DNA from: Brachyspira intermedia PWS/A
GTDB lineage: Bacteria; Spirochaetota; Brachyspiria; Brachyspirales; Brachyspiraceae
DNA: 64,000 nt
Reading direction: 5' to 3'
Assembly (NCBI RefSeq): GCF_000223215.1
Contig: NC_017243.1
Location: 1,612,001 to 1,676,000, forward strand
In this document: positions 50,489-62,398 of the stretch, piece after piece
Numbering within the stretch: position 1 is the stretch's first letter
Layout of the letters: each line of letters opens with the position of its first letter
Notes under the pieces: model-generated
The model's input: only the letters and a program-made list of their open reading frames with translations
What the model was told of the DNA's origin: nothing
Databases searched by the model: none
Position numbers and translations under genes: made by a program

Positions 50489-51724
50489 ATGAATAATAAT
50501 ATAAAAATTTCTGTTATTGTACCATCTTTTAATTCTGAAAGGTATATATCTCGTTGTTTGAAATCTTTAATTAATCAGACTTATAAGAATTTAGAAATAA
50601 TTGTTATCGATGATTGTTCTACTGATAATAGTTGTAAAATTATTGAAGAATTTCAAAAAAAATATAATAATATTATATTATTAAAAAATGAAGAGAATAA
50701 AAAAACATTCGAAACAAGAAGAATTGGTATGGAAACTGCAATAGGTGATTATATTGGGTTTTGTGATGCTGATGATTTTCATGAATCTTATGCTTTTGAA
50801 TATTTATTAAATTTAATACAACAAGATAATTATGATATGGCAACAGGTATTTTTGTATATAATGAAAATAATTGGCCTTGTCCAAAAAATAGTATGGTAT
50901 ATATTTTGAATAATTATGATTTATATAAAAATCTATTTTCTAAAAGTGAAATACATAGTTTATCTATTTCTATTTTTAAGAAAGAAACTATAAAAAAATC
51001 CTTATTGGAAGTTCCTAAAAATATAAAAATATCTAATGGAGAAGACTTCTTATGGTTTGCTTTTATTTATTATAATGTAAAATCATATATACACGGTGAT
51101 AAACCAATATATAATTATTGTAAAAATGAATTAAGTGTATCTAGATCTAAAAATATATATAGTGCATTATCTAGAGTTGTAGATTATTCTATATTATATT
51201 ATCAATTAGAGCAATTATTAATAAATAGAAATCAATATGAAACATATAGAATGAGGTTATCAAATATAGGAATGGGAATGTCCAAAGCAGCTATGGAAAG
51301 ATTAAAAAATAATACTGATGATTATATTGAGTTATGGGAAAAACATTCATCTGAAACTATGAAAAAACTTTTAGTTAATAATATTTTAATTAATAAGCAA
51401 CAAGAAAATATTGACTTTAAAATATTTAATGATAGAATATCCAAAATTGAGCTTGAAATAAACAATATAAATAATAATATGGTTAAAATTGAAAAGAATT
51501 TAATAAAATATAGTAATAATTTTACTAATATATTAAAAAATATAATTAATATTATAGTTTGGTGGATACCTATAAGAAAGTGGCGTGATGATTTTAGAAA
51601 TAAAATGTTAAATCCAGACCAGACCAGACCAGACCAGACCAGACCAGACCAGACCAGAGATAGGAATTATGTTTATTTGAATAATATAATAATAATGGAT
51701 AAATTACAAGCAGTTTTTTATTAG
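50489..51724 (+). CDS. family 2 glycosyltransferase C with WWIP tag and DQTRP tail
   Basis: About 411 residues from the ATG at 50489, which has AGGA at 50479-50482; upstream in-frame codons overlap the previous gene. The catalytic domain has ISVIVPSFNSERYISRCLKS, IDDCSTDNS and FCDADDF (DxD). A coiled-coil-like Asn/Ile-rich stretch follows, and then the tag IVWWIPIRKWRDDFRNKMLN shared with the next genes. Nine CCAGA units (51614-51658) encode PDQTRPDQTRPDQTRD, and the tail ends with NNIIIMDKLQAVFY. The repeat is in frame here; a change of unit number would replace the tail but not the enzyme domain. The stop overlaps the AGGAG of the next gene. Confidence 0.88.
   Translation: MNNNIKISVIVPSFNSERYISRCLKSLINQTYKNLEIIVIDDCSTDNSCKIIEEFQKKYNNIILLKNEENKKTFETRRIGMETAIGDYIGFCDADDFHESYAFEYLLNLIQQDNYDMATGIFVYNENNWPCPKNSMVYILNNYDLYKNLFSKSEIHSLSISIFKKETIKKSLLEVPKNIKISNGEDFLWFAFIYYNVKSYIHGDKPIYNYCKNELSVSRSKNIYSALSRVVDYSILYYQLEQLLINRNQYETYRMRLSNIGMGMSKAAMERLKNNTDDYIELWEKHSSETMKKLLVNNILINKQQENIDFKIFNDRISKIELEINNINNNMVKIEKNLIKYSNNFTNILKNIINIIVWWIPIRKWRDDFRNKMLNPDQTRPDQTRPDQTRDRNYVYLNNIIIMDKLQAVFY
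51614..51658 (+). repeat. (CCAGA)9 pentanucleotide repeat
   Basis: Nine perfect CCAGA units (45 bases) inside the end of glycosyltransferase C, directly after the WWIP tag. At 60% GC the tract stands out sharply from its surroundings. It encodes repeats of DQTRP. Confidence 0.95.
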
Positions 51725-51739
51725 GAGATATTTAAATTT

Positions 51740-53181
51740 ATGAATAAAATTTTTAATCCATTTTTCATTAATGCAAATCTTGTTATTAATAATGATGATA
51801 TAAGAAATATTGAAGCTTTTAGAAAAGCAGTATATCATAATATTGGTAATTCATATATTACTTATGCTTTTATGAAATTAGTATGTGGAGGAGTATATGA
51901 TGCTAAAAGAATAAATGATATTTATGATTATGATTATAATAATGAAAGTGATATTGATTATATTAATAATGAGTGTACTCATGTAATATTTATTTTACAG
52001 GATCATATTAGAGCTTATGCTTTAGAATTTCCTATATATTTATTAGATTTTTTAAAAAAATCAACAAACCAATAATAATTCTTAGTTTAGGTTCAAATAA
52101 TTATGTTAATGGTGAATATGATAATAATTTTATATCAAAATTAAGTAGAGAAAAAATATATTTTCTCAAAGAGCTTTCTAATTTAACAAATGCAATTGGA
52201 GTAAGAGGATATCGTACTGTAGAAGTTTTAAATAAGTTAGGTATTCATAATGTAGAAGCTGTTGGATGTCCGAGTTATTATGTTAGAGGTAGGAATAGGA
52301 TAGTTGAAAAAAAAAATTATGATGATTTTAAATTGGCATTAGGTGGAAGGTTATTTAATACAAATATAGAAAATATATCCTATATATTGCAAGATGAATT
52401 ACCTATTATTGAATTATTATATTTTAAAAATCATCAATTGAGTTATAGTTTTCATTATGATATAGATTATATGGCATTATCTAATAAAAAATATGTCTCA
52501 TTTTCTAGTATGGAAGATTGGGAAAATTATTTAAATAATTTTACTATGTATTTAGGTTGGAGAATGCATGGAGCTATAGTAGCACTAAATTCAGGGATAC
52601 CATCGATAGTTATTAATCCAGATTCTAGAGCTGCTGAAATGTGTGAATTATTTAAAATTCCTTATATGCCACATATTCTTAAAAGACCTTTAATAGATGC
52701 TAAATGGTTATATGATTATATTGATCTTGGACCTATGAATATAGAATATAACAAATTATATGATAATTTTATTAATTGGCTAAAAAAGTTTGGAATTGAG
52801 AAGCAAGAAAATAATTTTGATTATATAAAACAACCTTCTATTAAATTTCAGGATGATATAACTATAAAAGAAAATATAATACATATGTTAAATTATAAAT
52901 GCAATATACTAAAAAGTAATATTAATACTTTAAATGATAAATTAAATAATAATTCTCAAATATTAAAATATAAAGATAATATAAATAAATTAGCTTGGTG
53001 GATACCAGTAAAAAAATGGCGTGATGATTTTAGAAATAAAATGTTAAATACAGACCAGACCAGACCAGACCAGACCAGACCAGACCTAATATGTAGAGAG
53101 TACATATATACTAATAACAATAATATTATAATAATCAATAATAAATTACAACCTATGTTGCAAGATAAAATTGCAGCATAG
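51740..53181 (+). pseudogene. polysaccharide pyruvyl transferase family protein, frameshifted at an A7 run
   Basis: The first frame (51740-52075, AGGAG at 51723-51727) ends DFLKKSTNQ. One frame back the protein continues without a gap: INKPIIILSLGSNNYVNGEY, then NAIGVRGYRTVEVLNKLG, VGCPSYY, MYLGWRMHGAIVALNSGIPS and INPDSRAAEMCELF, as in polysaccharide pyruvyl transferases, which add ketal-linked pyruvate to sugars or act as related glycan transferases. The break is the A7 run 52054-52060, where TTA AAA AAA TCA carries the heptamer A_AAA_AAA; a -1 shift or one more A restores about 480 residues. The C-terminus has the tag LAWWIPVKKWRDDFRNKMLN, seven CAGAC units, and a tail that runs into the stem of the terminator at 53152. 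Whether it is inactive or expressed by slippage is open. Confidence 0.82.
53051..53085 (+). repeat. (CAGAC)7 pentanucleotide repeat
   Basis: Seven CAGAC units after the WWIP tag of the pyruvyl transferase gene. With seven units the frame continues as DLICREYIYT; the homologous tract with eight units at 57101 ends at once in TAA. Confidence 0.95.
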
Positions 53182-53199
53182 GTTTTTTTGTGCAAAAAA
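53086..53199. repeat. 114-bp downstream module, copy 1
   Basis: Identical base for base to 57141-57254. It starts after the CAGAC repeat (CTAATATGTAGAGAG...) and contains a complete terminator. A diverged and shortened relative follows the repeat at 60731-60800, and another lies at 60955-61017. Confidence 0.92.
53152..53189 (+). terminator. rho-independent terminator, copy 1
   Basis: CCTATGTTGCA (53152-53162) pairs over eleven positions with TGCAGCATAGG (53172-53182), followed by seven T. The stop codon of the upstream frame (TAG 53179-53181) lies inside the stem. Confidence 0.88.
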
Positions 53200-53245
53200 A
53201 TATTTTATTTAATTAATTATTTATTTTTATAAAAGGATGTTTTAT

Positions 53246-54463
53246 ATGTTAAAAGAATTTAAACCAGATGATATAGTTAAAAGTTGTCCATATTTAGAAA
53301 TGGGGTCATGTTTTCAACATGACGGCATATTTTGTTGTGTACATGGAATACAAAAATCTCCTGTGTTGATTAATGTAGATGAAATAAAGTCAAATAATTT
53401 AACATATGATTTAATAGTTCAGAGAAGAAAAGATTTATTCTATTCTATAAATGATGAAAATGACCATAGTTCTGATAATTGTAAATATTGTTCTAATTTA
53501 GTAGATAAAAAGTTTTCAGATGTTAATTTTGATTTTTTAGGCGGTGCTCATTTGCCAGCTGGATTTAATATACAGCATTATACGGCATGTAATCAACGTT
53601 GTAAATACTGCACCTTTACAAAACAAAATTTTTTTGTAAAGCCTCAATATAATATATTAGATTATTTTAAAATTTTTGCTGAAAAAGGTAAAATTAGAGG
53701 TGGTAATTGGGTAGATTTTAGTGGTGGCGAACCATCAATGCTTGATAATTTTGATGAAATAATAAATTATCTTTTAAGTATTAATTTTGGTACAATAGTT
53801 GTTTATTCAAATTGTGTTAAATATAGTGAGAGTATTTTTAGAGGATTAAGAGAAAATAAAATAATATTAACTACTTCTGTTGATACAGGTATACCTTCCT
53901 TGTATAAAAAATTAAGAGGTGTTGACACTTTTTCTAGGGTTATTTCTAATTTAATTAAATATAGAAATAGTGGTACTAAAGGTTTATGGTTAAAATATAT
54001 CATTTGTGAAGAGAATAGAAATGAAGATAGTTTATGGAGTTTTTTGCTTGCTATGATGGCATTACGTCCTAATAATATTATGATATGTCCAGATTTTCCA
54101 TACGGAGATATAGAAATACCTATGGAAACAGTAGAATTTGCAGGTGAATTATGGGCATTGGTTGAATCTTTACTTGGTATTACTCCTATAGATTACACTT
54201 CTTCGTTTGGAGCACCTAAAATGGTGGAATACCATAAAAATTTGGAAGTATCTATAAAAAAACATAGAGAGATTGTTAAAAAATTAAACTATAATAATAT
54301 AAATGATAATAGTTCTGTTATTAACTCAGATGAATATTTGAAGAATGAAATCAGTGAATATAAATTAAAATTAGATAGGTACAAAGATAATATAAATAAA
54401 TTAGCTTGGTGGATACCAATAAAAAAATGGCGTGATAATTTCAGAAGTAAAATGTTAAAATAA
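53246..54463 (+). CDS. radical SAM protein with WWIP tag
   Basis: About 405 residues from the ATG at 53246, preceded by AAAAGGA at 53231-53237; an in-frame ATG at 53237 overlaps that site and is less likely. The radical SAM cluster motif CNQRCKYC gives Cys115, Cys119 and Cys122, followed by the GGEP-type DFSGGEPSM motif that contacts SAM. Upstream are further cysteines (CPYLEMGSC, FCCVHG, CKYC), which could bind an additional cluster. The C-terminal YKDNINKLAWWIPIKKWRDN is the tag shared with neighbouring genes, here without pentanucleotide repeats. Such enzymes in glycan clusters modify sugars or attached groups by radical chemistry; the reaction here is unknown. Confidence 0.87.
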   Translation: MLKEFKPDDIVKSCPYLEMGSCFQHDGIFCCVHGIQKSPVLINVDEIKSNNLTYDLIVQRRKDLFYSINDENDHSSDNCKYCSNLVDKKFSDVNFDFLGGAHLPAGFNIQHYTACNQRCKYCTFTKQNFFVKPQYNILDYFKIFAEKGKIRGGNWVDFSGGEPSMLDNFDEIINYLLSINFGTIVVYSNCVKYSESIFRGLRENKIILTTSVDTGIPSLYKKLRGVDTFSRVISNLIKYRNSGTKGLWLKYIICEENRNEDSLWSFLLAMMALRPNNIMICPDFPYGDIEIPMETVEFAGELWALVESLLGITPIDYTSSFGAPKMVEYHKNLEVSIKKHREIVKKLNYNNINDNSSVINSDEYLKNEISEYKLKLDRYKDNINKLAWWIPIKKWRDNFRSKMLK

Positions 54464-54471
54464 TTCATAAG

Positions 54472-54770
54472 ATGTTTTATGCATGTGAATTTCATCCATT
54501 TTTTATAAATTCTAATATTATTTTATATGAATATAATGTTAGTAATATAAAATCATTTAGAAAATCTATATGTTGTAATATAGCTAATTCGTGTATAATA
54601 TATTCTTTTATGAAGTTAATTTGTGTTGGGGATATAACACTAGAAGAATAAATAATATTTATTCTTCTGTTTATGATTATGGAGATATAGATTAGATTAA
54701 TAATGAGTGTGTTTTTGTTATTTTAATTTTGCAGGATATAAAATGCAGTATAGTTTTTTTATGCAAAAAA
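54472..54770 (+). pseudogene. remnant of a polysaccharide pyruvyl transferase gene fused to half a terminator
   Basis: Reading from the ATG at 54472 gives HPFFINSNIILYEYNV, then IKSFRKSICCNIANSCIIYS and FMKLICVG, which lines up with the start of the gene at 51740 (NPFFINANLVI, IEAFRKAVYHNIGNSYITYA, FMKLVCGG). After a stop, other frames continue with INNIYSSVYDYGDID, another stop, and INNECVFVILILQD, matching INDIYDYDYN and INNECTHVIFILQD. From about 54735 the DNA passes into ATAAAATGCAGTATAG-T7-ATGCAAAAAA, a decayed right half of the terminator module found at 53163-53199. So a gene start was joined to a module end and then decayed. Confidence 0.8.
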
Positions 54771-54792
54771 TATATTTTGAGGAATAAATCTA

Positions 54793-57144
54793 ATGAATAA
54801 TATCAAGATATTAAATAGGAATGAATGTAGCGGTTGTTCAGTATGTTATAAGGTATGTCCGCATAATGCTATAAGTATGATAGAGACTAAGGAAGGATTT
54901 CATTATCCTTTAATAGATGATGAAAAATGTACGGATTGTGGAGTTTGTGTAAAGCGATGCCATTCTTTAAATGATAATTTTAAGACAAAACATAGAAAGG
55001 AGTTTTATGAAGTTAAGGCCTCTGATGAAATTAGAATGAAAAGTTCATCAGGTGGAATGTTTAGTTTAGTAGCAAATTATATACTAGATAGAGGTGGTTA
55101 TGTATGCGGAGCTAGCTTTAGTGAAGACTGGCTTAGAGTAGAACATATCATAATAGATAATAAGAAAGATTTAGACAAATTAAGATATTCTAAATATATA
55201 GAAAGTGATTTAGGTGATGTATTTATAGAGGTAAAGAAGTTATTAAATGATAAGAAGGAAGTATTATTTACAGGAGCACCTTGTCAGGTATCAGCATTAA
55301 ATCATTATTTAGGCAGAGACTATGATAATTTATTAACTATAGATTTGTTATGCAATAGCGTAGTACCACAAAAGATATGGGAGAAGTATATAAAAGAGAA
55401 AGTAGAAAATATAGCAGATATAGAATATGTAAGTTTCCGTGATAAAAATATATTTAAATGGACAACAGGATTGTATATTAAAACAAATAACAAAGAATAT
55501 TTATCTTTTGGAATAAATGATTTATATTACAAGATGTTTGTAAATCATACATCTTGTAAAGAAGAATGTTTACATTGTAAATATAGACGATTTGATAGGC
55601 CAGGAGATATCACTATAGGCGATTATTGGTCAGTAAAGGCTAAATATAAAGATGATAAGGGTATATCATTAATAAAGATAAGTAGTAATAAAGCATCAAA
55701 AATATTTAATAAAATAAAAAGTAATTGTGAATATAAAGAAGTAAATATCACACATGATGGTTTTGAACCCTGGATAACACCAATATGGACAAATAGAAAG
55801 TATTTCTTTGATAATTTAGATAAAGAATCTATTGAAGAATTATATAAACATTGTTCAGATACTAAATACAATGTAGGTATTGTGAATATGATTAATACTA
55901 ATAATACTGGCGGAGTATTAACATATTATGCTTTATATAAATTAATAGAGCAATTAGGTTATAATCCTATATTAATATTTAATTATCAGGCTACTAGAAA
56001 TTTATATGATAATACTCTAGGATGTAAAGCTATACTAAGATATTTGAATGTTGGTAATAGTGTTTATAATGAATCAGAATTATATAAATATAATAAATAT
56101 TGTGATACATTTATTGTAGGTTCTGATGTAGTATTTGCTTTACCAAGTTGGGTAAATCTATATCATCATTTAATGAATTTTGTACCTAGTTACAAGAAGA
56201 AAATATCTTTCTCTTCATCTTTTTCTTGTCTTCCTCAAGATTATAATATAGGTATTAAAAGAAAGTCTTTAATGAAATATTATTTTGAGCAGTTTGATAA
56301 AATATCTGTAAGAGAAGATGATGGAGTTGAAATTTGTAAGAATATATTTAATGTAAAAGCGGATCATGTATTAGATCCAGTATTTTTATTAGATAATTAT
56401 GATGAATTATTGAATAATAAGACTTCTACTATAGAAGGTAATTATTTGTTTGTGTATTATAGAAATTTAGATAATACAATGCAAGATTTAATAAATTATA
56501 TTGAAGAAAAATTGGATATAAATGTTATAAAATTACCTGTTACAGGAGATTGGAAACCTACACCATTATATGAATTAGAAGATTGGCTTTATATTATCAA
56601 GAATTGCAAATATTTAATTACTGATTCATATCATGGATTTTGCTTTGGATTATATTTTAATAAAAACATTTTAATAAAAATAGATTCTGGTTCTTCAAGA
56701 TTATTATCTTTGATGCGAATGTTTAATTTGGAAGATAGAATAGTTAGTTCGGTTGAAGATATTAAGAATAGAGATTTATTAAAAGATATGGATTATACAG
56801 AGATCAATAAGAAGTTAGAAGCAGAGAAGAAACGTTCTATAGAATGGCTTAAAGAAGCTTTAGAAAGTCCAAAAGTATTAAAAGAAGATAGTTATAAAGA
56901 TGATCTAATCAATATTTTAATAAAAGATAGTATGAATATGGGGGCATCTATATCTAATTTGCAAAATAATAATATAGATATTTCTAAAAGTAAAGTAATT
57001 ATTGATCTTAATAATAAGATTAATAAACTAATTAATACCATAGCTTGGTGGATACCAATAAAAAAATGGCGTGATGATTTTAGAAATAAAATGCTAAATA
57101 CAGACCAGACCAGACCAGACCAGACCAGACCAGACCAGACCTAA
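54793..57144 (+). CDS. ferredoxin/FrhB/polysaccharide pyruvyl transferase fusion, copy 1
   Basis: 783 residues, start supported by GAGGAA. Two 4Fe-4S motifs are at the N-terminus (Cys12, 15, 18, 22 in CSGCSVCYKVCP; Cys46, 49, 52, 56 in CTDCGVCVKRC). Then comes a coenzyme F420 hydrogenase beta-subunit-like (FrhB) domain to about residue 350, with SSGGMFSLVANYIL, FTGAPCQVSAL and RPGDITIGDYW. From about 362 follows a polysaccharide pyruvyl transferase domain: NNTGGVLTYYALYKLIEQLG, IVGSDVVF, and the C-terminal YLITDSYHGFCFGLYF. The end has the tag IAWWIPIKKWRDDFRNKMLN and eight CAGAC units ending in a stop after DQT. FrhB-like and pyruvyl-transferase proteins often adjoin in glycan clusters; here they are one chain. 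A redox-linked modification of the glycan is likely; the exact reaction is unknown. It is duplicated directly downstream. Confidence 0.9.
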   Translation: MNNIKILNRNECSGCSVCYKVCPHNAISMIETKEGFHYPLIDDEKCTDCGVCVKRCHSLNDNFKTKHRKEFYEVKASDEIRMKSSSGGMFSLVANYILDRGGYVCGASFSEDWLRVEHIIIDNKKDLDKLRYSKYIESDLGDVFIEVKKLLNDKKEVLFTGAPCQVSALNHYLGRDYDNLLTIDLLCNSVVPQKIWEKYIKEKVENIADIEYVSFRDKNIFKWTTGLYIKTNNKEYLSFGINDLYYKMFVNHTSCKEECLHCKYRRFDRPGDITIGDYWSVKAKYKDDKGISLIKISSNKASKIFNKIKSNCEYKEVNITHDGFEPWITPIWTNRKYFFDNLDKESIEELYKHCSDTKYNVGIVNMINTNNTGGVLTYYALYKLIEQLGYNPILIFNYQATRNLYDNTLGCKAILRYLNVGNSVYNESELYKYNKYCDTFIVGSDVVFALPSWVNLYHHLMNFVPSYKKKISFSSSFSCLPQDYNIGIKRKSLMKYYFEQFDKISVREDDGVEICKNIFNVKADHVLDPVFLLDNYDELLNNKTSTIEGNYLFVYYRNLDNTMQDLINYIEEKLDINVIKLPVTGDWKPTPLYELEDWLYIIKNCKYLITDSYHGFCFGLYFNKNILIKIDSGSSRLLSLMRMFNLEDRIVSSVEDIKNRDLLKDMDYTEINKKLEAEKKRSIEWLKEALESPKVLKEDSYKDDLINILIKDSMNMGASISNLQNNNIDISKSKVIIDLNNKINKLINTIAWWIPIKKWRDDFRNKMLNTDQTRPDQTRPDQT
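57101..57140 (+). repeat. (CAGAC)8 pentanucleotide repeat
   Basis: Eight CAGAC units at the end of fusion copy 1. With eight units translation ends immediately (ACC TAA); with seven it would read on as at 53051, and with nine it would end P-N-M. Confidence 0.95.
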
Positions 57145-57254
57145 TATGTAGAGAGTACATATATACTAATAACAATAATATTATAATAATCAATAATAAA
57201 TTACAACCTATGTTGCAAGATAAAATTGCAGCATAGGTTTTTTTGTGCAAAAAA
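57141..57254. repeat. 114-bp downstream module, copy 2
   Basis: Identical to 53086-53199, including the terminator. The following bases (ATATATTTTGAGGAATAAAT) are shared with the leader of fusion copy 1, so the unit of duplication includes this spacer. Confidence 0.92.
57207..57244 (+). terminator. rho-independent terminator, copy 2
   Basis: Same eleven-pair stem as copy 1 (57207-57217 with 57227-57237) and seven T. It lies between the two fusion genes, so copy 2 would rely on read-through or on an unseen promoter. Confidence 0.88.
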
Positions 57255-57276
57255 TATATTTTGAGGAATAAATCTA

Positions 57277-59586
57277 ATGAATAATATCAAGATATTAAAT
57301 AGGAATGAATGTAGCGGTTGTTCAGTATGTTATAAGGTATGTCCACATAATGCTATAAGTATGATAGAGACTAAGGAAGGATTTCATTATCCTTTAATAG
57401 ATGATGAAAAGTGTACGGATTGTGGAGTTTGTGTAAAGCGATGTCATTCTTTAAATGATAATTTTAAGACAAAACATAGAAAGGAGTTTTATGAAGTTAA
57501 GGCCTCTGATGAAATTAGAATGAAAAGTTCATCAGGTGGAATGTTTAGTTTAGTAGCAAATTATATATTAGATAGAGGCGGTTATGTATGCGGAGCTAGC
57601 TTTAGCGAAGACTGGCTTAGAGTAGAACATATCATAATAGATAATAAGAAAGATTTAGACAAATTAAGATATTCTAAATATATAGAAAGTGATTTAGGTG
57701 ATGTATTTATAGAGTTAAAGAAGTTATTAAATGATAAGAAGGAAGTCTTATTTACAGGAGCACCTTGTCAGGTATCAGCACTAAATCATTATTTAGGAAG
57801 AGACTATGATAATTTATTGACTATGGATTTCTTATGTAATAGTGTTGTATCCCAAAAGATATGGGAGAAGTATATAAGAGAGAAAGTAGGTAATGTAGAA
57901 GATATAGAATATGTAAGTTTCCGTGATAAAAATATATTTAAGTGGTCATCTGGATTATATATAAAAACTAGAAATAAAGAATATTTATCTTTTGGAATAA
58001 ATGATTTATATTACAAGATGTTTGTAAATCATACATCTTGTAAAGAAGAATGTTTACATTGTAAATATAGACGATTTGATAGGCCAGGAGATATCACTAT
58101 AGGCGATTATTGGTCAGTAAAGGCTAAATATAAAGATGATAAGGGTATATCATTAATAAAGATAAGTAGTGATAAAGCATCAAAAATATTTAATGAAATA
58201 AAAAGTAATTGTGAATATAAGGCAGTAAATATTCTACATGATGGTTTTGGTCCTTGGATAACACCAATATTTACAAGTAGAAAGTATTTCTTTGATAATT
58301 TAGATAAAGAATCTATTGAAGAATTATATAAACATTGTTCAGATACTAAATACAATGTAGGTATTGTGAATATGATGTTTACCAATAATGCAGGTGGAGT
58401 ATTAACATATTATGCTTTATATAAATTAATAGAGCAATTAGGTTATAACCCAGTATTAATTTATAGTAAATTAGCTGCTAATAATCTTTATGATAATACT
58501 TTAGGATGTCAGATAGCTTTAAGATATTGTAATGTAGGTAACAGTGTTTATAGTGAATCAGAATTATATAAATACAATACATATTGTGATACATTTATTA
58601 TAGGTTCTGATGTAGTATTTGCTTTGCCAAGTTGGGTAAATCTATATCATCATTTAATGAATTTTGTACCTAGTTACAAGAAGAAAATATCTTTCTCTTC
58701 ATCTTTTTCTTGTCTTCCTCAAGATTATAATATAGGTATTAAAAGAAAGTCTTTAATGAAATATTATTTTGAGCAGTTTGATAAAATATCTGTAAGAGAA
58801 GATGATGGAGTTGAAATTTGTAAGAATATATTTGATGTAAAAGCGGATCATGTATTAGATCCAGTATTTTTATTAGATAATTATGATGAATTATTAAATA
58901 ATAGTAAAGTAAAAATAGATTATGATTATATAGTTGTTTATTACTCTACTTTTGATGAAAAAATATCAAATATTACAAACTACATATCTAAAGAATTAAA
59001 TCTTAAAGTAGAAATTATACCAGCGATAAATGGTTATAGAGATAATCCAGAATATACAATAGAGGATTGGATATATAAAATAAGAAATTGTAAATATTTA
59101 ATAACAAATACATTTCATGGATTTTGTTTTGGATTATATTTTAACAGGAATATTATTATTAGTATTTACTCAGGTTCTTCAAGATTATTATCTTTGATGC
59201 GAATGTTTAATTTGGAAGATAGGATAGTTAGTTCGGTTGAAGATATTAAGAATAGAGATTTATTAAAAGATATGGATTATACAGAGATCAATAAGAAGTT
59301 AGAAGCAGAGAAGAAACGTTCTATAGAATGGCTTAAAGAAGCTTTAGAAAGTCCAAAAGTATTGAAAGAAGATAGTTATAAAGATGATTTAATTAATATT
59401 TTAATAAAAGATAGTATGAATATGGGGGCATCTATATCTAATTTGCAAAATAATAATATAGATATTTCTAAAAGTAAAGTAATTATTGATCTTAATAATA
59501 AGATTAATAAACTAATTAATACCATAGCTTGGTGGATACCAATAAAAAAATGGCGTGATGATTTTAGAAATAAAATGTTAAACTAA
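57277..59586 (+). CDS. ferredoxin/FrhB/polysaccharide pyruvyl transferase fusion, copy 2
   Basis: 769 residues with the same layout as copy 1: two 4Fe-4S motifs with all eight cysteines, the FrhB-like domain, the pyruvyl transferase domain and the WWIP tag. The first 150 residues and the last 130 are almost identical to copy 1, including many silent positions. Two blocks differ strongly: residues about 365-425 (MMFTNNAGG...LIYSKLAANN) and about 540-632 (SKVKIDYDYIVVYYSTFDEK through YLITNTFHGFCFG). Copy 2 has no CAGAC tract and stops directly after the tag (KMLN). The pattern suggests that both copies act on the glycan but with different acceptor or donor, the variable block lying in the transferase domain; that is inference. 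Confidence 0.9.
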   Translation: MNNIKILNRNECSGCSVCYKVCPHNAISMIETKEGFHYPLIDDEKCTDCGVCVKRCHSLNDNFKTKHRKEFYEVKASDEIRMKSSSGGMFSLVANYILDRGGYVCGASFSEDWLRVEHIIIDNKKDLDKLRYSKYIESDLGDVFIELKKLLNDKKEVLFTGAPCQVSALNHYLGRDYDNLLTMDFLCNSVVSQKIWEKYIREKVGNVEDIEYVSFRDKNIFKWSSGLYIKTRNKEYLSFGINDLYYKMFVNHTSCKEECLHCKYRRFDRPGDITIGDYWSVKAKYKDDKGISLIKISSDKASKIFNEIKSNCEYKAVNILHDGFGPWITPIFTSRKYFFDNLDKESIEELYKHCSDTKYNVGIVNMMFTNNAGGVLTYYALYKLIEQLGYNPVLIYSKLAANNLYDNTLGCQIALRYCNVGNSVYSESELYKYNTYCDTFIIGSDVVFALPSWVNLYHHLMNFVPSYKKKISFSSSFSCLPQDYNIGIKRKSLMKYYFEQFDKISVREDDGVEICKNIFDVKADHVLDPVFLLDNYDELLNNSKVKIDYDYIVVYYSTFDEKISNITNYISKELNLKVEIIPAINGYRDNPEYTIEDWIYKIRNCKYLITNTFHGFCFGLYFNRNIIISIYSGSSRLLSLMRMFNLEDRIVSSVEDIKNRDLLKDMDYTEINKKLEAEKKRSIEWLKEALESPKVLKEDSYKDDLINILIKDSMNMGASISNLQNNNIDISKSKVIIDLNNKINKLINTIAWWIPIKKWRDDFRNKMLN

Positions 59587-59601
59587 AGTTAATATAAATT
59601 T

Positions 59602-59630
59602 TTGACAAAATATATTATTTTTAGTATAAT
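59602..59630 (+). promoter_or_regulatory. consensus promoter before the acyltransferase
   Basis: TTGACA (59602-59607), a 17-base spacer and TATAAT (59625-59630) are an exact consensus. Transcription would start near 59637, 20 bases before the ATG at 59657, so this gene has its own promoter inside the cluster. Confidence 0.75.
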
Positions 59631-59656
59631 TGCTAAAATTAGATTATGGACTAAAA

Positions 59657-60741
59657 ATGAATAAAAGATTAAACAATATAGATTTTTTAAAAATAATATT
59701 TAATTTTGGAATAATATATGGTCATATATTACAACATTACCTTATTCCACAATTTAAAGAATATAAAACTTTATTTAATTATACTAGTTATTCATATGGT
59801 TATATGTGTGAATTTCTTTTTATAATATCTGGGTATTTTTTATTTAAAGAACTAAATAAAAATGATACTAGAACATTTATAATAAAAAAAATTCAAAGAT
59901 TATGGCCTATATTTGCATTTTCTATATTTATTACATATATATTATCTCGTTTCTCTTTGTCTAGTTGGACAGATATAAATGTAATACCTGAACTATTATT
60001 TTTGAATAGAGCTATAATATATGATATTCCTGTTGTTGTTGGAATAGCATGGTATGTTGGAGCATTATTTTGGAGTAGTATATTTTATTTTATAATATCA
60101 AAAATATTTGAAAAAAAAGCTATATATATTATATATTTGATAACTTTTTTTTCATATATGATTTTATTTTCTAAAGTATATTTGTATAGTGAACCTAGAG
60201 TATTTAACTCTTTTATAACTTTTTTATGCTAAGAGGTTTTGCTGGTGTAGGTCTTGGTATATTATTTGCTTATAATGTAAGGATAAATAATGATACTAAT
60301 ATAAATTTAAAATCATTTATTATTGGTATATTAGAAATTATTATTTTTATATTAATAATTTTATATTTATCAATAATAAAGATAAAATTTTCTTTTCCTA
60401 TTGGATTTTCATTATTCACTATATTATTTTATTTATTTCTTAAAGGAGATGGAATATTCAGTATTATCTTAAATAAAGATAAAATAATAATACCATTTAT
60501 ATCTAAATATATATATGGTATATACATTATGCAATTTATTGTATTTGGTATTTGCAATAAATTTTTGTACAAAAATGAGTATTTAGGAGTTGTTAAATTT
60601 CCAATATTAAATATTATTATAACAATATTATTATGTTTTATAGTTGGTATTTTATCAAATATAATTGTAGATAAAATAGTTTATTATGTATGCATAAGAC
60701 CAGACCAGACCAGACCAGACCAGACCAGACTTAATATGTAA
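59657..60741 (+). pseudogene. acyltransferase 3 family membrane protein, frameshifted at a T6 run
   Basis: The start MNKRLNNIDFLKIIFNFGII with YGHIL, then FLFIISGYFLFKEL and IIKKIQRLWPIF, is typical of the acyltransferase 3 family, inner-membrane proteins with about ten helices that O-acetylate surface glycans. I choose the ATG at 59657 because the promoter's expected start point is at 59637; an in-frame TTG at 59630 lies in the -10 box. The frame stops at FITFLC, and the next frame continues with MLRGFAGVGLGILFAYN and several more helices. The break is the T6 run 60220-60225 (T_TTT_TTA); one more T gives about 361 residues, normal for the family. The end carries six CAGAC units and the tail RLNM, without a WWIP tag. 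Confidence 0.82.
60701..60730 (+). repeat. (CAGAC)6 pentanucleotide repeat
   Basis: Six CAGAC units at the end of the acyltransferase, encoding RPDQTRPDQTR. Translation leaves the tract in the third possible frame and ends L-N-M. Confidence 0.95.
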
Positions 60742-60816: not shown

Positions 60817-60844
60817 TTGACAAAATAATAATTTAATTTAGAAT
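60817..60844 (+). promoter_or_regulatory. promoter before the GACAA repeat
   Basis: TTGACA (60817-60822), a 16-base spacer and TAGAAT (60839-60844). The transcript would include the GACAA tract and reach the terminator at 60980 unless read-through occurs. Confidence 0.6.
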
Positions 60845-60875
60845 AAATGTAATATTATTTATATGGTTTTCTTAT

Positions 60876-60940
60876 GACAAGACAAGACAAGACAAGACAA
60901 GACAAGACAAGACAAGACAAGACAAGACAAGACAAGACAA
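60876..60940 (+). repeat. (GACAA)13 pentanucleotide repeat
   Basis: Thirteen perfect GACAA units, 65 bases, between a promoter and a terminator. An ATG at 60874 reads through it as TRQDK repeats for about 25 codons, without a ribosome binding site. The unit differs by one base from the GACCA repeats nearby (GACAA versus GACCA). Confidence 0.95.
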
Positions 60941-60979
60941 GAGATAGATAATATTATAATAATAATTAATAAATTACAA

Positions 60980-61017
60980 CCTATGTTGCAGTATTAAATT
61001 GCAGCATAGGTTTTTTT
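60980..61017 (+). terminator. rho-independent terminator, copy 3
   Basis: The CCTATGTTGCA/TGCAGCATAGG stem of the other modules recurs with a changed loop (GTATTAAAT) and seven T. It lies only 20 bases before the glycosyltransferase start at 61038, so expression of that gene would depend on read-through. Confidence 0.88.
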
Positions 61018-61037
61018 ATTAATATTGGAGAAATATA

Positions 61038-62398
61038 ATGTATGAAAATATAAAAAAAGATATTGACAATGTAGTTTGGTGGATTCCATTTAAAAAATTA
61101 AGAAATTCATTAAAAAATTATTTACTACAGATCAGTGATTTGAGTAGTAAAATATCTAATTTAGATAATAAACTTAATAATTTAGATAATAAACTTAATA
61201 ATTTAGATAATAGAATACCTAATATTGTAGAAAATGATTTAAACTATATAAAAGAAAAAATAGGATATGCTGATATTAGAACATATAATATTGATATTAG
61301 AACTATTAATATGGAAAAACAAATTAATAGTATAAATAAAGATATAAGAATAAAATTAAATCATATTGCTTCAGAAGAATACAATTATGATAAGAATATT
61401 TTTAATAGTATTACCCCACCCTATATATCAATAATAGTACCTATATATAACATAGGTAAAGAATATTTACTAAATTGTTTGAATAGTTTAGTTAATCAAA
61501 CTTTGAAAGAAATAGAAATAATATTAGTTAATGATTGCTCTCCAAATGAAGAAGATGATTTAATATGCCAAGAATATGCCTTAAAAGATAAAAGAATAAA
61601 ATATATAAAACATAAAAAAATAAAGGTCCTGGCGGAGCTAGAATGACAGCACTAAGAGAAGCAAAAGGTTATGCTATAGGTTTTGCTGATCCTGATGATG
61701 CAGTTGCATTAAATACTTATGAAATAGCTGTTTCTAGAATGCTTATAAATAACGTTGATATAGTTTGTTTTAATTATTATTGGATAGAAAATGATGAAAT
61801 AACAGATATGCATATAAATATACCACAATTTTTATATGGCAATAATATATTACATTTATTATCTATAGAAAAAATGCATGCTCCTTTATGGGATAAAATT
61901 TATAGAAAAGAATTAATAGATAGATTTGAATTTGATTTATTTATTGATAATAATAAACTTGATGATATGATTGCTATAGTAAAGATATTAAGCGTAGCAA
62001 ATAATTTTGAATATATACCTATTCCTTTATATTTCCATAATAGAAGATATATATCAATAACTAATGATATTGATAAAAAATATATTTTTGATGATAGAAA
62101 GTATTCTGTAGAAAATATATTTGATTATTTTACAAGTAATTTTCAATTAAAAGAAAAAAAAATTGAAATGAATAATTTTATTATAACCTTATATAGATTA
62201 ACTTATGTTTTTATAGACATGAAGTTTTATAGAACTAAGCAAACAGATGAGGATATTGAAATACGTAATTGTCAAATACAATTATTAAAAGACTTGATAA
62301 AAGATAATATAAGAGATGGGTATATAACTGAAGAAATTTTTATGGATATATGTAATAAACGTAATTTATTGCCTTTAATAGATTTATATATTAATTAA
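61038..62398 (+). pseudogene. family 2 glycosyltransferase D with N-terminal WWIP tag, frameshifted at an A7 run
   Basis: GGAG precedes the ATG at 61038. Unlike in its neighbours, the tag is at the N-terminus: DNVVWWIPFKKLRNSLKNYL. A coiled coil follows (three LDNKLNN-type heptads, 61158-61220). The catalytic domain begins at about residue 133: ISIIVPIYNIGKEYLLNCLN and VNDCSPNEE. The frame is lost at the A7 run 61614-61620 and ends at 61646; one more A continues it as KGPGGARMTALREAKGYAIG and FADPDDAV, the DxD-type metal site, down to 62398 (about 453 residues). Without correction the metal site is absent, so the first fragment alone cannot be active. The heptamer here is T_AAA_AAA, a poorer slippage site than at the other breaks. 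Confidence 0.82.
61158..61220 (+). repeat. 21-bp tandem repeat, three units
   Basis: AATTTAGATAATAAACTTAA-T occurs twice exactly (61158-61178, 61179-61199) and once with changes (61200-61220). It encodes one coiled-coil heptad pair per unit (NLDNKLN), so length changes would keep the frame. Confidence 0.85.

Follow-up and report, generated by a model that had tools for sequence, protein, structure and literature searches.

Pentamer repeats at the ends of glycan genes in Brachyspira intermedia suggest a slipped-strand switch at gene junctions

The analysed window, a stretch of 64,000 nucleotides (nt) of the Brachyspira intermedia PWS/A genome (contig NC_017243.1, positions 1,612,001–1,676,000), carries four tandem tracts of the pentamer AGACC at the ends of genes A1–A4, and a tract of another unit occupies a short leader open reading frame (ORF). 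Tract positions and unit counts were obtained with Tandem Repeats Finder, the counts of the four tracts coming from one genome of this species; they are given in window coordinates in Table 1, together with the neighbouring features, among which terminators and promoters are predictions here and throughout. All four arrays are perfect, which bears out the claim of an earlier note on this DNA that the same pentamer ends four genes. In a pattern search every (AGACC)x3 match of the 3,308,048-base genome fell inside these four tracts, so their distribution is not due to chance. Since the pentamer units contain no T, a stop codon is impossible in any frame inside a tract.

Table 1. Pentamer tracts, the genes they end and the features of the adjacent junctions (window coordinates)
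Feature	Position	Strand	Description	Source
Pentamer tract 1	51614-51658	+	9.0 units, perfect AGACC array	Tandem Repeats Finder
Pentamer tract 2	53051-53086	+	7.2 units, perfect AGACC array	Tandem Repeats Finder
Pentamer tract 3	57101-57141	+	8.2 units, perfect AGACC array	Tandem Repeats Finder
Pentamer tract 4	60697-60730	+	6.8 units, perfect AGACC array; no terminator downstream	Tandem Repeats Finder
Gene A1, family 2 glycosyltransferase	50489-51724	+	WWIPIRKWRDDFRNKMLN, then tract	Pfam PF00535, E=1.2e-36
Gene A2, polysaccharide pyruvyl transferase	51740-53181	+	Pfam match on second part	Pfam PF04230, E=1.3e-17
Gene A3, Fe-S / FrhB-FdhB / pyruvyl transferase fusion	54793-57144	+		Pfam
Gene A4, C-terminal fragment of acyltransferase-3 gene	60226-60741	+		Pfam PF01757
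Junction 1	51722-51742	+	long-exit stop TAG 51722-51724 overlaps AGGAG ribosome-binding site; next gene ATG 51740	
Junction 2, intrinsic terminator	53150-53184	+	AACCTATGTTGC..GCAGCATAGGTT and T run; contains long-exit stop TAG 53179-53181	
Junction 3, terminator	57205-57239	+	same terminator as junction 2; next gene 57277, about 39 nt on	
Sigma-70-like promoter	60817-60844	+	TTGACA-16-TAGAAT, 11/12; upstream of leader	
Leader ORF	60875-60950	+	ATG 60875, then (GACAA)13.4 at 60876-60942	
Terminator 3' of leader	60978-61012	+	same hairpin family; glycosyltransferase gene starts 61038	

In the four genes the Pfam domains end 5' of the tracts, as in C-terminal phase variation, and the open frame ahead of the repeats is about 160 to 770 codons long; the repeats are thus placed at the 3' ends and not near the start codons. 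The earlier statement that they are unlike classic 5' ON/OFF phase variation therefore holds. The companion statement that the enzyme domains stay intact holds only in so far as the tracts lie past them, since gene A2 is broken by a frameshift near 52070 (frame analysis) and the acyltransferase gene (59630–60741) is split by a frameshift upstream of tract 4. At present the tract at 51614 is left through the long exit, DRNYVYLNNIIIMDKLQAVFY and a stop, ending in ..LQAVFY (translation), while its other two exits stop 2 and 19 nt past the tract. The tract at 53051 is also left through the long exit (..DLICREYIYTNNNNIIIINNKLQPMLQDKIAA / ..KLQPMLQDKIAA, each with a stop), the tract at 57101 through an immediate stop (TAA 57142), and the tract at 60697 through ..LNM and a stop. 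Early exits in the window consist of an immediate stop or of NM and a stop, and the long exit comprises 20–30 residues. These translated exits agree with the proposal that the unit number selects the tail; the common set of tails proposed with it did not stand, since the DNA downstream of tract 1 is unlike that of tracts 2 and 3, and its tails therefore differ from theirs.

At tracts 53051 and 57101 the three stops lie 0, 7, and 92 nt past the tract and the hairpin occupies 63–98 nt, the early stops being 56–63 nt 5' of the hairpin and the long stop within its 3' arm. The radical SAM gene starts at 53237, 52–54 nt beyond the junction 2 terminator. The gene at 57277, past junction 3, is a close paralogue of A3 without a tract, and no good promoter was found in the gap between the junction 3 terminator and this gene.

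A precedent for such a layout is the GCAGA-repeat leader-peptide attenuator of Streptococcus gallolyticus pil1, whose mechanism is proven (Danne et al. 2014, PMC3894217) and beside which pil3 is likewise listed; stops at least 28 nt before the pil1 terminator result in a mixed, mostly low state, and stops at or within the terminator result in a high one (PMC3894217). In the pil loci as in the Brachyspira ones the number of a T-free pentamer varies, GCAGA being the rotated form of the Brachyspira unit AGAGC, and in both the frame decides whether the stop is well before or at/within a terminator located just upstream of the controlled gene. This combination of a terminator and a frame-dependent stop is present at 53051 and 57101 and absent at 51614 and 60697. 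A short leader ORF is found at none of the four 3' tracts, which stand at the ends of enzyme genes, whether full or fragmentary; the four would thus work like the pil1 type without strict membership in it. Unlike in pil1/pil3, the proposed switch sits where one gene of a glycan cluster adjoins another, and the first protein is also changed; moreover, Brachyspira belongs to another phylum and has other units and many loci per genus.

The complete pil1-type layout (promoter, short repeat ORF, terminator, gene) occurs at the leader at 60876 and is shared by about nine other leaders of the genus. The present exit of leader 60876 stops 6 nt past the tract, another frame extends to the hairpin loop, and no clear ribosome-binding site was seen upstream of its ATG 60875. 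Its (GACAA)13.4 repeat, located just past the stretch that the earlier note considered, belongs, as a fifth tract, to the same phenomenon as the four AGACC tracts. Two relatives have the same arrangement as 60817–61040 (L073 14537 and L077 401). Among the ten leader ORFs with a promoter, ATG, tract, terminator and gene in the genus, 60876 included, some frame enters the hairpin in 9 against 4.9 expected.

Isolates of B. hyodysenteriae differ in the number of units at orthologous plasmid tracts. Six isolates have 7, 7, 9, 11, 12, and 13 units in the acetyltransferase tract; the SAM methyltransferase tract has 8.4 units, 9.4 (three isolates) or 10.4 (two isolates), and the ATP-grasp tract has 8, 9 or 10 units in five isolates compared directly. 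The flanks are 98–100% identical and the differences are whole units, which indicates that slippage is real in the genus. All three exits are present at each of these loci, and hence C-termini vary at orthologous tracts. Constant repeat numbers among isolates, named in the earlier note as an outcome that would speak against the tails varying, were not found.

AGACC tracts were detected in 19 of the 41 genomes searched, all 19 being Brachyspira, and a wider T-free pentamer-array pattern had matches in 26/26 Brachyspira genomes, with B. innocens, B. pilosicoli, B. alvinipulli, and uncultured Brachyspira among the named members. The reversed pattern that this search uses as a control does not serve as one for tandem repeats. 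Since the genus tracts were sampled via searches and regions, the census does not cover all of them; homologous copies inflate its counts, and the tail families were grouped by eye. The units include AGACC, AGAGC, AGAAC, AAAGC, AAGCC, AACAC, AAGAC, and others, and three placements of the tracts occur: just past a start codon (the classic one), in a short leader ORF, and at the gene end. Gene-end tracts are often found in glycan, methyltransferase, ATP-grasp or radical SAM genes.

The exit frames of 59 non-redundant 3' tracts (177 frames) were analysed statistically. Their first stops fall at 0–18 nt in 96 frames and beyond 70 nt in 56, and only 12 stops are located at 19–45 nt, where 55 would be expected by shuffling. 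A T-tailed hairpin follows 34 of the 59 tracts and is reached by a frame in all 34. For the 31 tracts studied in detail, the long exit enters the hairpin in 31/31 cases against 9.9 expected from shuffled spacers, and their 93 frames comprise 48 that stop early, 45 that cross and none that stops in between. The terminator usually precedes the next gene by 30–45 nt; the distance from the hairpin to that gene is 31–42 nt in about 14 of 26 AGACC cases, and the best promoter match in these gaps usually reaches only 5–8 of 12. Units and hairpins that are unrelated to one another show the same junction layout, namely those of AGACC, the AACAG acetyltransferase type, L201, L202/L208, and the leader ORFs. 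In tracts without the hairpin, the long exit can instead finish at the start signals of the next gene (window 51614, L195, L211, and L097), with the stop and start overlapping as TAATG in L195 and L211 and as ATGA in L097.

One can suggest the following mechanism. The 3' tract would serve as a slipped-strand counter between the carrier gene (A) and the downstream gene (B), with the exit frame set by the unit number modulo 3. After an early exit, which lies no more than about 20 nt past the tract, protein A would end cleanly and the ribosomes would leave, so the intergenic terminator could form and B would be low. After a long exit, the ribosomes would enter the terminator hairpin or the ribosome-binding site of B, and transcription or translation would proceed into B. 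This would amount to antitermination or coupling mediated by ribosomes, as in pil1, gene A taking over the part of the leader peptide. The states predicted for the present unit numbers are coupled at junction 1 (9 units), B on at junction 2 (7), B off at junction 3 (8), and B off at leader 60876 (13). At terminator-bearing loci such junction control is probably real.

The long exits have a second property, since their tails often resemble SsrA at the end, and A would possibly be degraded while B is on. An exit ending in alanine occurs at 42 of the 59 tracts and one ending in Ala-Ala at 27, whereas only 8 of 511 ordinary ORFs (1.6%) end in alanine, none of 511–611 ordinary ORFs ends in AA, VA or IA, and normal proteins have less alanine at their last position than further inside (1.8% vs 4.5%). 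The tails QYKIAA, QYYIAA, and QYDIAA resemble the transfer-messenger RNA (tmRNA) tag, which is ADEYALAA in the genome of the window and ADEYAIAA in two related species, and Y-x-[ILVK]-A-A tails are found at 12 tracts. In the window, the exit of 53051 is SsrA-like (KIAA), and the tails of 51614 and 60697 are not. Alanine endings are shared by families with different units and tails (KIAA, KEAA, RIAA, QAAA, KNIA), including terminator-free ones (NYCKEAA, VRIAA). The corresponding protease is encoded in the same genome, where ClpX (590 bits) and ClpP (275 bits) are adjacent at C2:2791592–2793528. Taken together, the alanine-ending exits suggest a degradation tag, and its reality at some loci is quite conceivable, although somewhat short of probable.

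The strongest alternative is that the tracts represent a phase-variable degradation tag and nothing more: one frame would carry an SsrA-like degron, ClpXP would remove A, and the terminators would be ordinary and B unaffected. Besides the alanine enrichment, it is favoured by the tails of the AGAGC family and of L075 4926, which have no terminator, and by L073 14333 and L077 184, which keep IAA and LAA despite a different hairpin. We nevertheless consider it unlikely. Eleven tracts, including window 51614, L201, L202, and L208, have junction features without an alanine end and do not fit it, for which reason the degron-only account was rejected; tails ending in KTA or KSA are only weakly SsrA-like, and the alanine codons of the AGACC tails belong to the hairpin. 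A terminator-only account of all 3' tracts was also rejected: the AGAGC family and L075 4926 have neither a strong terminator nor coupling, so junction control fails to explain all of them. Most of the 59 tracts show both a junction feature and an alanine end, and 13 have an alanine end without junction features by automatic criteria, a few of these having hairpins that the criteria miss. Junction control accounts for the 11 alanine-less tracts and the degron idea for the 13 others. The most parsimonious account is a slippage switch between A and B whose long exit would act in favour of B and may also eliminate A.

Several observations weigh against this junction switch. Most AGACC junctions are homologous, so their counts are not independent; several AGACC terminators lie more than 100 nt from gene B, one of them with an 11/12 promoter, and the open frame is retained there. 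The leader set taken by itself gives a P of only about 0.006, from cases that are not independent. In the AGACC and AACAG acetyltransferase tails the codons for alanine sit inside terminator stems, and part of the alanine enrichment may therefore stem from the hairpins and not be fully independent of them. The families without a terminator or coupling named above also count here, as does the little protein-level constraint that codon-position counts reveal in AGACC tails. With these points considered, we incline slightly towards the slipped-strand switch at A/B junctions, in which the long exit would raise B and may destabilise A. A stricter form, the reciprocal A-or-B selector, in which one and the same unit count would tag A for proteolysis and lift termination before B, appears rather doubtful.

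Two further explanations have little probability. In the first, C-terminal phase variation would be selected for its own sake, the tails altering enzyme activity, membrane contact or partner choice; C-terminal phase variation is indeed a published class, and a conserved C-terminal motif, WWIPIKKWRDDFRNKMLN, which is a plausible membrane-contact segment, often precedes the tracts. On this explanation neither the terminators nor their spacing ahead of gene B would be expected, the same tail is carried by unrelated enzymes, and the AGACC tails are low-complexity, AT-driven, and under weak protein-level constraint. A pure peptide function was rejected on this weak codon constraint, although the codon-position test is not decisive, and we regard such a function as improbable. 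Thus, the role given to C-terminal variation in the earlier note needs revision: the C-termini do vary, probably not for the function of the tail itself, and effects on gene B and on protein stability are likelier because the long exits meet terminators or the next ribosome-binding site and many end like SsrA. Neutral microsatellites that grow by slippage where they are least harmful, past the last domain, with functionless tails, are equally improbable, for although simple repeats at gene ends are generally known to be tolerated and both the terminator and the alanine end are lost in window 60697, L079, and L074 11010, the clustering of the tracts, the empty zone between early stops and hairpins in 31 tracts, the alanine ends, the terminator spacing, the T-free units, and the recurrence in glycan genes of many species would be unexpected.

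C-terminal phase variation is not new in itself, having been described in 2010 (PMC2823697) and 2016 (PMC5320596) for H. canadensis and gonococcus. Those cases share with the Brachyspira tracts a 3' repeat of varying length, three C-termini chosen by frame, intact domains, and the inclusion of glycan-related genes; theirs are mainly poly-G tracts with unrelated tails, whereas Brachyspira has pentamers, recurring tail types, and terminators or gene starts at the end of the long frame. A reference to degradation was found in neither paper. In the open-licence literature searched, no link between repeat number and protein stability was found, and the Brachyspira genome papers do not mention slippage or repeat phase variation, an absence which is no proof. 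A change of DNA at the 3' end that adds or removes a C-terminal SsrA-like tag and so sets the protein level is known from the integration-dependent immunity of cluster N/P mycobacteriophages (PMC5764923 and its reference 2), where the change comes from site-specific integration and concerns one phage repressor, whereas in Brachyspira a set of glycan enzymes is subject to slippage.

Classic translational phase variation by 5' repeats, as in phasevarion mod genes (PMC2667262), also has its counterpart in Brachyspira, where pentamer tracts of the same style lie just past start codons; the four window tracts differ from it by their 3' position, with the enzyme domains still translated. At L071 10126–10184 an AGACC tract immediately follows the start of a long DNA methyltransferase-like ORF (LIYLDPPFNS), a possible phasevarion. 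Approximately 30 pentamer tracts, many of them AAAGC, occur at L139–L170 in one 2.5 Mb genome, following a near-constant start (e.g., MKITxNNNTVNLL) in many different genes, and would constitute a large 5' phase-variable repertoire. The genome of the window itself has AAGCC tracts at C2:1308925, 1876527, 1884943, and 1906611 (L126, L133, L135, and L137), with near-identical flanks (MFDLLFFxSRLAIT), another paralogous 5' repeat family.

Other features of the window concern the genes around the tracts. Three of the four tract-bearing genes have the C-terminal motif WWIP(I/V)xKWRDDFRNKMLN directly 5' of the tract. In the broader form WWIP(I/V/F)(R/K)KWRDxFRxKML it is found at the C-termini of the ORFs ending at 51724, 53181, 54463, 57144, and 59586 and at the N-terminus of the ORF at 61038; its carriers are otherwise unrelated glycan enzymes, and it is frequent 5' of tracts across the genus. 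Perhaps, it represents a membrane or complex anchor. Three glycan genes are each split by a frameshift, namely the pyruvyl transferase (51740–53181), the acyltransferase (59630–60741), and a family 2 glycosyltransferase (61038–62398), and two of the three breaks are close to homopolymer runs; these may be real decay, a second type of switch or assembly errors. The genes at 54793–57240 and 57277–59586 are closely similar tandem copies of 770–780 codons whose differences lie mostly in parts of the pyruvyl transferase region, the first having a tract and terminator and the second ending in KMLN and a stop without either. An apparent degraded remnant at 54475–54780 resembles the start of gene A2 (pyruvyl transferase, 51740).

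If the junction switch is true, Brachyspira would possess slippage switches throughout the genus at gene junctions, beyond those at gene starts, which would explain variation of glycan clusters without loss of enzyme domains and would extend the Streptococcus attenuator to another phylum and to intergenic sites. Should the reciprocal selector be true as well, a single slippage step would replace one glycan enzyme by the next, and combinatorial surface sugars would arise from junctions of this kind arranged in arrays.

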